Assembly (NCBI GenBank): GCA_020440025.1
Contig: JAGROX010000018.1
Coordinates: 6,437-41,456 of the forward strand
Length of the DNA stretch: 35,020 nt
Direction of reading: 5' to 3'
DNA from: Verrucomicrobiia bacterium
GTDB lineage: Bacteria > Verrucomicrobiota > Verrucomicrobiia > Verrucomicrobiales > DEV007
Under the pieces are notes generated by a model, which searched no databases, was not told the origin of the DNA, and saw nothing but the letters and a program-made list of their open reading frames with translations. Every line of letters begins with the position of its first letter. Position 1 is the first letter of the stretch. The translations under genes and the position numbers were made by a program. Below are positions 7,224 through 33,889 of the stretch, in pieces.

Positions 7224-8483
7224 ATGCCGCGAGTTCCCATCTACATGCCCCAACTCGGCGAATCGATTGCCGAAGCCACTATCCGCGAAATCGATATCGC
7301 GACCGGCGACGACGTAAAGGCCGATCAGGAAATCTTTCAGGTCGAGACGGACAAGGCCATGATGGGAGTGACCACTTCCGCCAGCGGCACCGTTCTGGAG
7401 ATCGTGGCCAATGTCGATGAAAGCTACGCCGTCGGCGCGACCTTGGCGTATCTTGAAGTGACGGAGGAAGAAATTCAGCGCGCTGGACTTTCCAAAACCG
7501 GAGACACCGATCCAGTCAAACCTCTGCCTGAAGCGGGTGGAGCAAGCCCCTCCGTCGATGACGATGACGACACCAGCGGGGTTCATTTTGCCGTCGACGA
7601 GCGAGAAATGATCACCGACGAGCGGCCCGAGGTGAAACCGACCATCGAAGGCCTGCCTGTCCCGGCTTCGACCACTGGCGCGACCTATCTGAGTCCCAGA
7701 ATGAAGGTGCGGATGGAAGAGCTCGGCCTGAATGCCTCCGATCTTGCCGGGGTCGCCGGCAGTGGCGCGGGCGGTCGAGTGACGATCGAGGATTTCGAAA
7801 AATTCATTCGTGAGATCGAGAGCAGCAAGATGACGGAGGCGTCGCCAATGCGCATCGCCGTGGCCGACTCCATGCGCCGCAGTTGGTCGCGCCCGCTGGC
7901 GACCGTGGGCGTGCCGGTGGTATTGGATGAAATACTCAATCATCGCCGCCAACAGGATCCCAAGCCCGGGCTGGGCCTGTATGCCATTCGAGCGCTCGCC
8001 ATGGCGCTCTCCGAAAACACCGCCGTGGCCGGTCGGCTCGTGGGTGAACGTATCGTCCACCCGAATGCCATCGATATCGGATTTGCCGTGGAGGTTGACG
8101 ATGGTGTCCTCGTTCCCGTGATGCGCGAGGTGGACAAAAAAACCCTGTCCGAGTTGACTTCCTCCTACGAAACTTTGGTCGAGCAAGCTCGAAAACGAAA
8201 GCTCCCCCCCGAAGCGCGGGGAGCAGGCATCGCCACGGTGACCAACTTCGGGACCTTCGGGATTGTCTGGGCCACGCCGATTCCCCTTCCGGAGCAGAAC
8301 CTCGTGCTCGGCATCGGTGCCGGCACCAAGGTGCCCACCTGGGATCCCGCGACCGAAACTTTCATTCCCAAAACCGAGGCCCAACTGACCCTGAGTTTCG
8401 ACCATCGTATCCTCGATGGCGGTGCTGCCGGTCGATTGCTCCAGCGAATCGGAACCTTGCTGCAATCTCCCGAGGCACTCTAA
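7224..8483 (+). CDS. 2-oxoacid dehydrogenase E2 (dihydrolipoamide acyltransferase)
   Basis: 419 residues with the complete E2 architecture: a lipoyl domain (residues 1-80, lipoyl-lysine K44 in VETDKAMMGV), an acidic linker, a peripheral-subunit-binding domain at about 153-192 (LSPRMKVRMEELGL, GRVTIEDFEKF), and a catalytic acyltransferase domain from about 205 to the end, with the active-site motif DHRILDG (H394, D398). It transfers the acyl group from lipoamide to CoA in a pyruvate, 2-oxoglutarate or branched-chain complex. Which complex cannot be told from the sequence. The usual E1 and E3 genes are not adjacent, which is unusual. The catalytic domain is compact, and its N-terminal MRIAVADSMRRS is only a loose match to the classic RRxIAxRM element. 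Confidence 0.9.
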   Translation: MPRVPIYMPQLGESIAEATIREIDIATGDDVKADQEIFQVETDKAMMGVTTSASGTVLEIVANVDESYAVGATLAYLEVTEEEIQRAGLSKTGDTDPVKPLPEAGGASPSVDDDDDTSGVHFAVDEREMITDERPEVKPTIEGLPVPASTTGATYLSPRMKVRMEELGLNASDLAGVAGSGAGGRVTIEDFEKFIREIESSKMTEASPMRIAVADSMRRSWSRPLATVGVPVVLDEILNHRRQQDPKPGLGLYAIRALAMALSENTAVAGRLVGERIVHPNAIDIGFAVEVDDGVLVPVMREVDKKTLSELTSSYETLVEQARKRKLPPEARGAGIATVTNFGTFGIVWATPIPLPEQNLVLGIGAGTKVPTWDPATETFIPKTEAQLTLSFDHRILDGGAAGRLLQRIGTLLQSPEAL

Positions 8484-8499
8484 GAAGACTCTTGGATCG

Positions 8500-8543
8500 A
8501 CCCAACAGGGTTGCGTCGGCGACTCAACAGGGTTGACTGAAGA
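8500..8543 (+). repeat. 22-nt-period tandem repeat, locus 1 (intergenic)
   Basis: Two consecutive 22-nt units begin ACCCAACAGGGTTG (8500-8521) and ACTCAACAGGGTTGA (8522-8543), between the E2 stop and the sigma-factor start. The same core with the same 22-nt period is found at 15114-15157 and, on the other strand, at 31685-31728. Locus 1 and locus 2 also share the bases between cores (GTCGsCGACTCAACAGGG), so they are related by descent or copying rather than chance. Confidence 0.78.
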
Positions 8544-14195: not shown

Positions 14196-15461
14196 ATGAA
14201 TCGAAAAACCATTTTCTGGACCATTGCTGTCGCCATCATTGCCGCCCTCGTCTACCTCGGCGTCCGTCCCAAACCGGTGGAGGTGGACTTCGGCACTGTC
14301 GTTCGCGGTCCCCTCGTGGTGACCGTGAATGAGGATGGCGAAACCCGGATTCGGGAACCTTATCTCATCTCGGCCCCGCTGGCGGGTCGATTGCTGCGGG
14401 TGAAACTCGAGCCCGGCGACAGCATCAAGAAAGATGACGTTCTCGCCGCGATCGATCCCGGCGAGCCAGGCCTGCTCGATGCCCGAACCGAGGCGGAAGC
14501 CCAGGCCCGGGTGAATGCCGCCGAAGCCGCCCATGCGAGAAGCCAGAGCCAGCTGGAAATCACCAAAGCGGATGCCGACCAGGCCCAGCGTTATCTTGAT
14601 CGTGATCTTGGGCGCTTGGAGCGAGGAAACATCTCCGATGCCACCCTCGAAGATACCGAACACGCCCTCCGCGTAGCCAAAGGAAACCTGGCAGCGGCTC
14701 AGTCGTCATTGGAAATTTCCAAGTTCGAACTCGAACAGGCCAAAGCCGCCCTTCTCTATTCCAAATCCCTGAGCAATCCCAATGAACCTACGGGTCGGCA
14801 TTTTGAGATTCGCAGCCCCATCGATGGCGTGGTCCTGAGACGCTTTCAGGAAAGCAGCACCGTCATCCCGGGCGGCGAACGCATTCTCGAAATCGGCGAC
14901 CCTCACGATCTCGAAATCCGGATCGATGTCCTGTCTCAGGATGCCGTCCGCATTCAACCCGGCCAGCGCATCATGATTGAGCACTGGGGCGGCAAAGAGA
15001 CTCTCACCGCCTGGGTTCGTCGGGTGGAACCATCCGCCTTCACCAAAATCTCTGCCCTCGGTGTCGATGAACAACGCGTCTGGGTCTACGGAGATTTCGC
15101 CGCACCCGAGCAGACTGAAGAGGGTCAAGTCGCCGACTCAACAGGGTTGAATGACGCGATTGCCCATTCCCTTGGGGATGCCTATCGTATCGAAGCGCGC
15201 ATTGCCGTTTCGGAGCAGGCCAATGTCCTCAAAGTTCCCGCCGGTGCCCTCTTTCGCGATGGTGACAACAACGGGGAGAACGATTGGGCGGTCTATCGAG
15301 CAGACGAAGAAGGCAAAGCGGTGAAAGTGCCCATCGTCGTCGGTGAACGCAATGACCTGGAAGCCGCCGTGATTTCCGGCCTGGAAGAAGGCGACCGCGT
15401 CGTCCTCCACCCGAGCGACAAGGTGAGCCCGGGAACGCTCCTCGTGGAGCGTGATCTGTAG
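14196..15461 (+). CDS. HlyD/RND-type periplasmic adaptor of the ABC exporter
   Basis: 421 residues: N-terminal membrane anchor (residues 5-22), split lipoyl/barrel-sandwich halves (ISAPLAGRLLRVKLEPGDSIKKDD... and FEIRSPIDGVVLRRFQES), a coiled-coil hairpin at about 92-200 rich in Ala/Gln/Glu, a beta-barrel, and a membrane-proximal end (ALGVDEQRVWVYGDF...). It bridges the inner-membrane FtsX transporter to an outer-membrane channel, which is not encoded here. Between VYGDFAAP and LGDAYRIEARI there are about 20 residues where homologues I recall have roughly 5; this stretch is encoded by a copy of the 22-nt-period repeat (15114-15157). The stop is 4 bp before a strong bidirectional terminator. 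Confidence 0.92.
   Translation: MNRKTIFWTIAVAIIAALVYLGVRPKPVEVDFGTVVRGPLVVTVNEDGETRIREPYLISAPLAGRLLRVKLEPGDSIKKDDVLAAIDPGEPGLLDARTEAEAQARVNAAEAAHARSQSQLEITKADADQAQRYLDRDLGRLERGNISDATLEDTEHALRVAKGNLAAAQSSLEISKFELEQAKAALLYSKSLSNPNEPTGRHFEIRSPIDGVVLRRFQESSTVIPGGERILEIGDPHDLEIRIDVLSQDAVRIQPGQRIMIEHWGGKETLTAWVRRVEPSAFTKISALGVDEQRVWVYGDFAAPEQTEEGQVADSTGLNDAIAHSLGDAYRIEARIAVSEQANVLKVPAGALFRDGDNNGENDWAVYRADEEGKAVKVPIVVGERNDLEAAVISGLEEGDRVVLHPSDKVSPGTLLVERDL
15114..15157 (+). repeat. 22-nt-period tandem repeat, locus 2 (inside the HlyD gene)
   Basis: The second unit, ACTCAACAGGGTTGAATG plus 4 nt (15136-15157), is nearly identical to locus 1. The first unit (15114-15135) is degenerate but matches the first unit of locus 1 at 15 of 22 positions, including the GTCGsCG spacer. 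In frame it encodes VADSTGLNDA, within a loop that is longer than usual for this adaptor family. Confidence 0.68.
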
Positions 15462-31090: not shown

Positions 31091-33151
31091 CTACGGTTGA
31101 ATCGCCAATTCCGCCACGTCACGAGCCACTTTCAACCAGCCACCCCAGCCACCCGCTGCCTCCACATCGGTCAGGGCAATGCGACCAGCCGTGAGTTTCC
31201 TGTGAGCATCGAATCGCACGCCTTCTTCGGGGGGCGTCCTTTCCTGTTTTTTCTCGATGGAGAAAGCGAGGGCATGCCCCGCACTGACCCGTCGAGACAA
31301 GTCGCATGCGAGTCGGCCCATGGTAAATCGCGGATTCACTTCGCAGACCACCCGATGCGCCAAGTTTCCGGCTCGGTCCCGATAGACAAAGGCATCGATC
31401 CCAACGGGACCACGATAGCCCGCCTCGGCCAACCAAGCCCGGAGGTTCTCTGGAAAAGGCTCACCCTCATCGTAATTGGGCAAGGCGTGATGCATGAGGA
31501 ATTGGGCCAACTCGGAATCGAGCCCTCGACAGAATTTTGGACTCCACACCGTGCCCAGATAGCGGCCGCGTTCTCCGATGAGTTGGCGCGTGAATCCAAT
31601 CCGACGGAGAGTGTCGCCCGTCATCTCGAACTGAACTGAAAAATCGAAAACCCGATCCACCCACGGTTCCAGCACCCCTCTTCCGCACCATTCTACCCTG
31701 TTAGGTCCGGCATTCAACCCTGTTAGGTTGCCTGTATCCTCGGGCTCGATCCGGCGAAATCCTCGACCGGCGGCGGCAAACTCGGGCTTCCATACCATCG
31801 AGACCGGACCTCCCCAGTTTTCCTGAATCGAGGCAGCCGCGTTCACCCAGGATTCGCCATCGATGACCGGATGAGAAAGAGGCATCTCCCCGTCGGACCA
31901 TTGCGGCCACTCTTCCATCTGGGAGATCTTGGAGAAAAGGCCGCGTATCTCAGCCGACCATTTCGTCGTCTCGGCTGATTTCGGCAACTTCGCCCGCAGC
32001 GGAGCCAGGAGTTTCGCCACTCGCGGATCCCACGACCACGGTCGAAGATCATTGAGTCGGCGATCGGCAGTCAGGCTGTCGACGGCGAGCGACGTGTCCG
32101 ACTCCACCTTTTCGAATTCCGGCAAATCGAAACCCAGCGCGCGGATTCGCTCCAGATATTCCCGGCGCTGAGTTTCTCTCACCAATACCACATCGTCTCG
32201 TCGCGCCAGGTAGAGTGCCAATCCCTCGAGGTCGCGAACAAACTCGGTCACGGATCGCTTCGGCTCGTAGTCCCCACCATTGAGTCCCCGGGCCATGACG
32301 TCCTCGGCGTGAGGGTTGAACCAGTGAACGTTGGGCGTGCGCCCTTTGGATCGCTCGAAGACTGCCAGTTCTCGCACAAATTCTTCATCCAGTCCCGCCG
32401 CCAATCGGCCTTCGGCATTAAACTCGGCTCCGTTTCCTTTGGCTCGACTCGCCGACAGCGGAAAGACGAGCGACTCCTGATATGCCTCCCAATCGGATTG
32501 CCCTTCCCGCTTCCATTTGCGAAACCATTTCAGTCCATAGCCGACGTGAGAAATCTCGTCGCGATAGATTTGATCCATCAATTTTCCCGATTTTTCATCG
32601 CCAGCCTCTCGCATGACTCCTGCAAAATGTCGGGCGTAGTCGAGATTTGCCTGCTCAAAAGTCAGGCTGAGCCGGGTCACGTAGTCGAGCGGCGTCTCCA
32701 TCTGCGCCACCATGTCCCAGAAGAATCGGTTCAGCGGATGGGTGCCGAAAGTGACCCCGCACTCCTCCATCCGACGCACATACCAGAGCGTGTGTCGCTG
32801 CTCCTCGCGAAGGGTCTGCAGCAGCCCCATTCGAAACGCTCTCGGGGCATCTGGAAAGCGCAACAGCGCCAGAGCCATCAGTTCTGCGGCCATCAACTCA
32901 TGATTCCCAAAAAAGTGAAAAAGCACGCCTCGTGATTCTTCATCAACGAGTTGAGGTCTCGACGGAAGCTCAGGTTTCCCTTCTGCGCCCCGGATCCGCA
33001 TTCGCAGATCCATCGGTCGCCCTGGTTCGACGAGTTGAGGGGGAATCGCCGCGATGCCATCATCCGTCAGCTCCGCCAGAGGAAGAATCTTGAGTTTCTC
33101 CTCGAGGGTTTCGGCATAGAGCACTCGCTCGGCATACTCGGCAATGGTCAC
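31091..33151 (-). CDS. Fusion of ferritin-like (DUF455-type) domain and ATP-grasp-like domain
   Basis: 686 residues from GTG 33151. The first about 230 residues are a ferritin-like four-helix bundle like DUF455/MiaE-type proteins: FHFFGNHELMAAELMALAL (E85, E90), LREEQRH (E117, H120), LTFEQANLDY (E166) and YRDEISHVGYG (E199, H202). This is a complete set of diiron ligands in E, ExxH, E, ExxH order. Residues about 300-660 look like an ATP-grasp ligase: SMVWKPEFAAAGRGF, LEPWVDRVFDFS, GPVGIDAFVYRD and VVCEVNPRFTMGR. Such a pairing may couple an oxidation to ATP-dependent ligation. Residues about 474-489 are encoded by copies of the 22-nt repeat. Substrate unknown. Confidence 0.85.
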   Translation of the reverse strand: MTIAEYAERVLYAETLEEKLKILPLAELTDDGIAAIPPQLVEPGRPMDLRMRIRGAEGKPELPSRPQLVDEESRGVLFHFFGNHELMAAELMALALLRFPDAPRAFRMGLLQTLREEQRHTLWYVRRMEECGVTFGTHPLNRFFWDMVAQMETPLDYVTRLSLTFEQANLDYARHFAGVMREAGDEKSGKLMDQIYRDEISHVGYGLKWFRKWKREGQSDWEAYQESLVFPLSASRAKGNGAEFNAEGRLAAGLDEEFVRELAVFERSKGRTPNVHWFNPHAEDVMARGLNGGDYEPKRSVTEFVRDLEGLALYLARRDDVVLVRETQRREYLERIRALGFDLPEFEKVESDTSLAVDSLTADRRLNDLRPWSWDPRVAKLLAPLRAKLPKSAETTKWSAEIRGLFSKISQMEEWPQWSDGEMPLSHPVIDGESWVNAAASIQENWGGPVSMVWKPEFAAAGRGFRRIEPEDTGNLTGLNAGPNRVEWCGRGVLEPWVDRVFDFSVQFEMTGDTLRRIGFTRQLIGERGRYLGTVWSPKFCRGLDSELAQFLMHHALPNYDEGEPFPENLRAWLAEAGYRGPVGIDAFVYRDRAGNLAHRVVCEVNPRFTMGRLACDLSRRVSAGHALAFSIEKKQERTPPEEGVRFDAHRKLTAGRIALTDVEAAGGWGGWLKVARDVAELAIQP
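31685..31728 (-). repeat. 22-nt-period tandem repeat, locus 3 (inside the ferritin/ATP-grasp gene)
   Basis: On the minus strand, two units start ACCTAACAGGGTTGAATG (31728-31707) and ACCTAACAGGGTAGAATG (31706-31685), with 18 of 22 positions identical. The 22-nt period is not a multiple of three, so the two copies are read in different frames: LTGLNAG, then PNRVEW. They lie in a loop between two ATP-grasp strands. Confidence 0.82.
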
Positions 33152-33844: not shown

Positions 33845-33889
33845 AAAACGCCCTGACGCTTCCCTCACCGGGAGTATCAGGGCGTTTTT
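33845..33889. terminator. Strong bidirectional terminator
   Basis: AAAACGCCCTGA and TCAGGGCGTTTT form a 12-bp stem with a T-tract; the 20-nt loop holds a small TCCC/GGGA hairpin. It ends the SWIB transcript, and its A-tract provides the T-tract for the convergent Usp transcript, whose stop codon overlaps its edge. Confidence 0.92.

Follow-up and report, generated by a model that had tools for sequence, protein, structure and literature searches.

A 41-bp twin element evenly spaced along the chromosomes of one group of Verrucomicrobiales, and a putative recognition site for a dimeric DNA-binding protein

The stretch of 35,020 nucleotides analysed here (the window) carries three copies of a 41-bp element, built from two 19-bp units and a 3-nt spacer with a 22-bp period, which recurs at strikingly regular distances along the chromosomes of related bacteria. 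The reading that we tentatively prefer is that this twin is the putative recognition site of a dimeric DNA-binding protein which would act chromosome-wide, in folding, segregation or tagging, rather than at single promoters. No paper on this element was found in the open-access literature.

The host genome (G000; 6.38 Mb, 500 contigs, 87% complete) was used to train a weight matrix (PWM), which gave a 19-nt unit of approximately GAYTCAACAGGGTTGARTC, with near-palindromic arms flanking an asymmetric AGG, in keeping with the imperfect palindrome described when the core was first noticed. The skeleton GA-N3-AAC-AGG-GTT-N3-TC is constant across genomes, with some departures. When 415 kb of G000 were scanned with the matrix, 40 twins had a period of 22 nt, none had a period of 19–21, 23–25 or 32 nt, and one pair had a period of 33 nt. 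The 22-nt period also holds in G002, G003, G013 and G078; stray pairs were seen at 18 and 19 nt (one each, G078) and at 20 nt (one in G013 and one elsewhere), with a few more in G078, all of them at low thresholds or in other pieces. Most sites (190 of 206) have two units, 15 have three and one has four, always on the 22-bp register. The AGG can face either way, and the 193 sites scoring at least 30 comprise 92 direct, 84 convergent and 17 divergent arrangements. Some arrangements are more elaborate: at about 9527–9610 of L257 (G003 C32) a divergent and a convergent twin lie within some 80 nt, where the G000 counterpart is one direct twin, and in L002, L003 (both G000 C28) and L013 (G000 C68) the units are ordered reverse-forward-reverse, the third unit being seen in L003 and L013. 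These last three are alike over about 60 nt on their left and are possibly pieces of a larger duplicated segment.

All three window loci are direct twins. Locus 1 (8499–8539, plus strand; units 8499–8517 and 8521–8539, spacer 8518–8520; PWM score 50.7) is intergenic; its neighbours, named by Pfam, are an E2-type acyltransferase gene whose end is at 8483 and a sigma-factor-like gene whose start is at about 8579. Locus 2 (15113–15153, plus strand; units 15113–15131 and 15135–15153; score 52.1) lies inside a HlyD-type adaptor gene (14196–15461; Pfam HlyD_3), and locus 3 (31689–31729, minus strand; units 31689–31707 and 31711–31729; score 49.2) inside a DUF455-containing gene on the minus strand (31091–33151; Pfam DUF455). 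Loop alignments of homologues put locus 2 in a loop of variable length in the adaptor protein and locus 3 in a variable loop of the DUF455 protein, whose DUF455 part is N-terminal and is followed by a long C-terminal part with no Pfam match. Elsewhere in the window, at 33845–33888, there is an inverted repeat with 19-nt arms, a 6-nt loop and a T-run at its end, which is perhaps an ordinary terminator.

The sequence-only reading had counted five copies of AACAGGGTNGA and one degenerate copy at three paired places; the pairs are real, their unit starts are indeed 22 nt apart at every locus, and loci 1 and 2 do have most of the intervening bases in common, as had been said, but the count has to be lowered to four exact copies (8526, 15140 and, on the minus strand, 31692 and 31714). 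The copy at 8504, counted as the fifth, has a different last base, and the sixth is the degenerate GAAGAGGGTCAA of locus 2. With one mismatch allowed, AACAGGGTNGA has eight matches in the window against 1.62 expected, a number reached by none of 100 shuffles, and three of the eight (550, 11212 and 18961) lie outside any twin. The sequence-only reading would have given up the idea of a true repeat family had fewer than some ten more copies turned up or had the spacings been random; instead, CAACAGGGTTGA has 293 matches in G000 at up to one mismatch, where its reversed pattern has 29 (103 against 1 when exact), pairing is strictly at 22 bp, and all three window loci are members of the family.

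With a sequence-only model (E ≤0.1; best 88 candidates per genome), at least 38 of the 74 genomes in the bacterial family match: all four of genus g1, 30 of 33 in g2, both of g11, the one of g13 and, weakly, one of four in g17. Two of the three g2 genomes that have no site among their best 88 candidates are incomplete; the existence of such genomes implies that the twin system would be dispensable. Of the 288 genomes of the order Verrucomicrobiales, at least 38 have matches at E ≤0.001 among the best 22 candidates of each; 36 of these belong to this family, and the other two have one match each among those candidates. A scan of GTDB returned at least 119 loci, of which at least 30 hold a twin, and the 30 twin loci among the matches listed are all titled Verrucomicrobiales, Verrucomicrobiia or Verrucomicrobia. 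On contig C50 of G061 (L412–L414, about 240–278 kb), four sites stand 9.6–16.6 kb apart within some 37 kb of sequence that includes genes which we take to encode metal efflux and mobile-element functions, while the remainder of that genome gave one weak match only; the stretch looks like transferred DNA, with misassembly as the alternative. A virus-borne element was considered and rejected: of 54 exact-core loci in the viral contigs (a raw count of direct and convergent twins), five score above 36 as full twins, two duplicate pairs among them, and the median of real sites in G000 and G003 is 49.

The sites are evenly spaced. Pooled over 153 sites on 11 stretches from five genomes, each stretch with at least four sites, the spacing CV is 0.48, against 0.90 for uniform placement and 0.85 ± 0.06 when the numbers of sites in genes and between genes are kept; none of 5000 draws was as low, and five neighbours lie closer than 3 kb where 32.6 were expected. 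For this test, sites less than 200 bp apart were merged and the window's own three sites excluded; genes were called with a simple codon-score script, as they were for gene placement and for locating the window loci, and the stretches were chosen partly for holding sites, which should not produce evenness. Against the intergenic null, eight of the 11 stretches are individually even at p <0.05 and three are not (G013_C80, p 0.066, or 0.009 against the uniform null; G003_C386, p 0.14; G000_C224, p 0.31), and in the host genome alone the evenness is weak (14 sites, p 0.03). The mean spacing differs threefold between genomes, from 7.1–11.4 kb in g1 and g11 to 23.8 kb in G078 of g2, where the 715-kb contig 13 has 30 sites with a CV of 0.51 and a minimum of 7.5 kb. 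Extrapolated to whole genomes, the 52 sites in 490 kb of G002 correspond to some 690 per 6.5 Mb, and the density in G078 to some 190 per 4.5 Mb.

Biased transfer (molecular drive) would also lead to evenly spaced sites if these were self marks for DNA exchange, either uptake signals or marks that protect or select self DNA, an explanation that we regard as unlikely. PMC1939737 describes uptake sequences of H. influenzae as evenly spaced, crediting this to Karlin et al., and the USS of Haemophilus and DUS of Neisseria resemble the twins in forming genome-wide arrays, in both orientations and in tolerant spots. The motif is likewise over-represented genome-wide here, sits in tolerant coding spots, has a clade-specific consensus and occurs on the apparently transferred DNA of G061, and ComEC is found in 58 of the 74 family genomes, including most carriers. 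However, ComEC fails to separate carriers from the rest, since it is equally present in many site-free genomes, such as G021; it was missed in a few incomplete carriers, and it is absent from nine of ten g15 genomes, also site-free, but present in other site-free genera. The sites themselves differ too. According to PMC1939737 and PMC7811141, USS and DUS are short, non-palindromic and mostly single, with about 10% in inverted pairs, and stand about 1 kb apart, whereas the twins are palindromic, have a fixed period and lie on average 7–24 kb apart. If drive worked by point mutation, part-matches should be plentiful, yet isolated strong units (score ≥14, five genomes) number 27, next to 201 twins and 3 such units in the reversed control; this scarcity, together with a motif that is long (approximately 42–59 bits) and requires two units at fixed spacing, makes uptake-like drive the less favoured account.

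The sites are also retained in position. Within the genus, a site is common to 24 of 28 mapped comparisons and seven of ten distinct loci, an upper estimate because the relatives' pieces were fetched partly by flank similarity to G000 sites, so that sampling favoured sites, and some of the 28 rows repeat, L193 and L271 being overlapping pieces with one locus in common. Three sites are not shared, two of them weak (scores 26 and 27). Same-genus flanks are about 65–83% identical in DNA, and in the 24 shared comparisons the orientation is the same in 17 and changed in seven. G003 and G001 have the locus 1 twin in their orthologous gaps; that of locus 2 recurs in G001, G002 and G003, with the homologous proteins running through it in frame; and that of locus 3 is found, weaker, in G003 and G001, in the opposite orientation in G002, and in the G002 orientation in the same protein loop of G013. 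At L248:12369 one unit is common to G000, G001 and G003, and its partner flanks it on one side in G000 and on the other in the latter two. Another dispersed repeat, some 127 nt long, occupies 14003–14129 of L248 (G000 C264); both strands of G001 and G003 match it in many short stretches, and near 80 kb of G000_C224 it is repeated in tandem. At a strong G003 site with no counterpart in G000, the G000 sequence has a relic-like score of −4.2 (background mean −31.4, 99th percentile −13.4), and the gap in G002 is shorter. Across the 17 same-orientation comparisons the 41 nt are 63–88% identical and the adjoining 41-nt flanks 34–78%, the element exceeding both its flanks in 12. Of 18 cross-genus rows, four represent two loci clearly shared in the same orientation, each viewed from either genome; a site is clearly absent in another four, and the ten with weak or paralogous flanks, one of which shows a site, were left uncounted. 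One of the two shared sites lies between genes that we read as pgk and tpi, and the other beside what we take to be an FKBP-like isomerase gene and a small unnamed protein.

The consensus changes from genome to genome with its symmetry largely kept, being about GAYTCAAC-AGG-GTTGARTC in G000, GATCAAAC-AGG-GTCTGATC in G002 and GAACCAAC-AGG-GTTGGTTC in G013. In G002 symmetry extends outwards as GGTTTCC...GGAAACC, and in G013 as about GTTTAC...GTAAAC. The 3 nt of the spacer are characteristic of the lineage in G002, and less strictly so in G013 and G003. Within the arms, G000 has GAYTC, a form of GANTC, and G002 has GATC, both of them methylation targets elsewhere; neither occurs in G013 (GAACC). 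The copies are not recent duplicates: within one genome and orientation class the top identity between two copies is 0.78–0.95, and nearest-neighbour identity is not above column shuffles in six of ten sets and slightly above them in four.

These features bear on a second possibility, a form of the short mobile repeat suggested when the core was first noticed: a REPIN- or MITE-like micro-mobile repeat, spread long ago and mostly between genes, that would owe its spacing to target immunity or purging and would today be passed on largely by inheritance. We consider this rather improbable, although the outer inverted repeats of G002 and G013 make a mobile origin of the early copies possible, and the lineage-specific spacers, the intergenic bias, the patchy presence within one family and the four sets with slightly raised identity all fit it. 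REP, REPIN and BIME elements with their RAYT are likewise small palindromes and often paired, and they lie between genes, where most but not all of the twins are found; GTAG-type REPs are reported in O. terrae, a member of the Verrucomicrobia (PMC3733652). Against this, the twins are evenly spaced, orthologously retained and in part within genes, their three- and four-unit arrays stay on the 22-bp register, and near-identical copies are absent. No clean 41-bp insertion was found at one non-shared locus or in the two protein loops, all weak tests, and neither insertion nor origin in place is proved, since the length of either loop varies whether or not it carries a site. Nor do Y1 transposases track the sites: they are common in the family but independent of site number, with one weak or broken match each in the site-rich G013 and G025 and up to 36 in site-free genomes, and the RAYT/REP candidate was therefore rejected. 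As between the two suggestions of the sequence-only reading, a DNA-binding protein fits better than a mobile repeat, because of orthologous retention with changeable orientation, symmetric change of the consensus and the lack of any burst of near-identical copies; the old mobile origin is the weaker of the two but possible. The convergent and divergent twins and the regular distances along the chromosome were beyond the reach of that earlier reading.

With respect to genes, pieces 9 kb or longer carry 197 sites, of which 147 are intergenic and 50 lie in called coding sequence, which makes up 88% of the DNA. Convergent gaps hold more sites than expected from their length (32 against 21.7) and divergent gaps fewer (22 against 40.1), with 49 and 44 in the same-strand gaps where 35.2 and 50.0 were expected. 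Repressor operators are typically symmetric twin sites of this length, which is what would recommend operators of a global transcription factor; the depletion in divergent gaps and the placement in general argue against promoter operators, as do the quarter of sites within coding sequence, the even spacing and the retention across genera of a site between the presumed pgk and tpi genes, and this explanation is very unlikely.

It is more doubtful still that the twins act as RNA hairpins, whether as terminators, stabilisers or attenuators. Convergent twins do fold well (mean MFE −16 to −25 kcal/mol over 55 nt) and locus 1 is more stable than its shuffles (z −3.78), but the folds of direct twins are less stable (−11.7 to −16.5), and locus 2 (z −1.19) and the plus strand of locus 3 (−0.63; minus strand −2.97) are no better than shuffles. 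There is no Rfam family match within the window and no covarying pair in an alignment of 27 twins, and mirror positions are uncompensated within copies (ten sets: seven below expectation, one equal and two above). Symmetry thus belongs to the consensus, as it would at a dimeric protein's site, and not to a hairpin maintained in each copy.

Least credible of all are core sites of a site-specific recombinase, of integron attC or inversion type: the symmetric arms around an asymmetric 3-bp centre, the orientation changes in seven of 24 shared comparisons and the likeness of the arms GAYYCAAC/GTTGARTC to the integron core-site consensus speak for them, but recombinase cores are typically longer than this 3-bp centre, the arms change in other genomes, and the sites are single, kilobases apart and in some cases inside genes, with no cassette array.

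Returning to the binding-site reading, each 19-bp unit would be bound by one dimer of the candidate protein, and the two dimers would sit side by side, two helical turns (22 bp) apart on one face of the DNA. As each unit is symmetric in itself, this arrangement would explain why orientation can change while position is retained. Even spacing and the avoidance of divergent gaps suggest that one twin per stretch matters, and selection may act to keep one in each stretch of chromosome. MatP with matS and ParB with parS are examples of chromosomal palindromes recognised by a dimeric protein in organisation or segregation. The putative role proposed here is of the same kind, and archaeal SegB sites offer a further parallel; in PMC12284271 the SegB motif is described as 13 bp long, with 46 sites that are mostly intragenic and clustered near segAB, whereas the sites described here are twins, mostly intergenic and evenly spread. 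A feature of the matS, parS and SegB type, orthologous retention of sites, is present in these genomes at seven of ten loci within the genus, subject to the sampling in favour of sites noted above. Among the neighbouring systems (uptake sequences, SegB, REPs) we know of none with a fixed 22-bp twin. Several observations count against the binding-site reading: three of the 11 stretches are not significantly even and the host genome is so only weakly, the mean distance varies threefold from genome to genome, a few g2 genomes carry no site, four loci are clearly absent across genera where two are clearly shared, and the spacers and outer inverted repeats of G002 and G013 could be traces of copying. 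ParB itself, the nucleoid protein family covered by the search, was rejected as a correlate; it occurs in 66 of the 74 genomes, usually as one copy, with and without sites.

A more specific and more doubtful version of this reading, which we nevertheless think possible, is a chromosome lattice in which hundreds of evenly spaced twins and a dedicated protein would set the length of loops or domains, as a ‘molecular ruler’. Such a ruler would be, to our knowledge, unlike any known nucleoid system. Genome-wide arrays of a motif that are both evenly spaced and retained in position are rare. Uptake sequences, the best-known case, were at one time interpreted as pointing to replication, repair or compaction, as PMC1939737 recounts. 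In the array described here the site is considerably larger and a twin palindrome, the spacing is on the scale of domains, and the bacteria belong to a group in which little cell biology has been done. Because the consensus changes between species, co-variation with it offers a way to find the protein, and the array makes it testable whether bacteria set the size of chromosome domains by fixed sequence landmarks.
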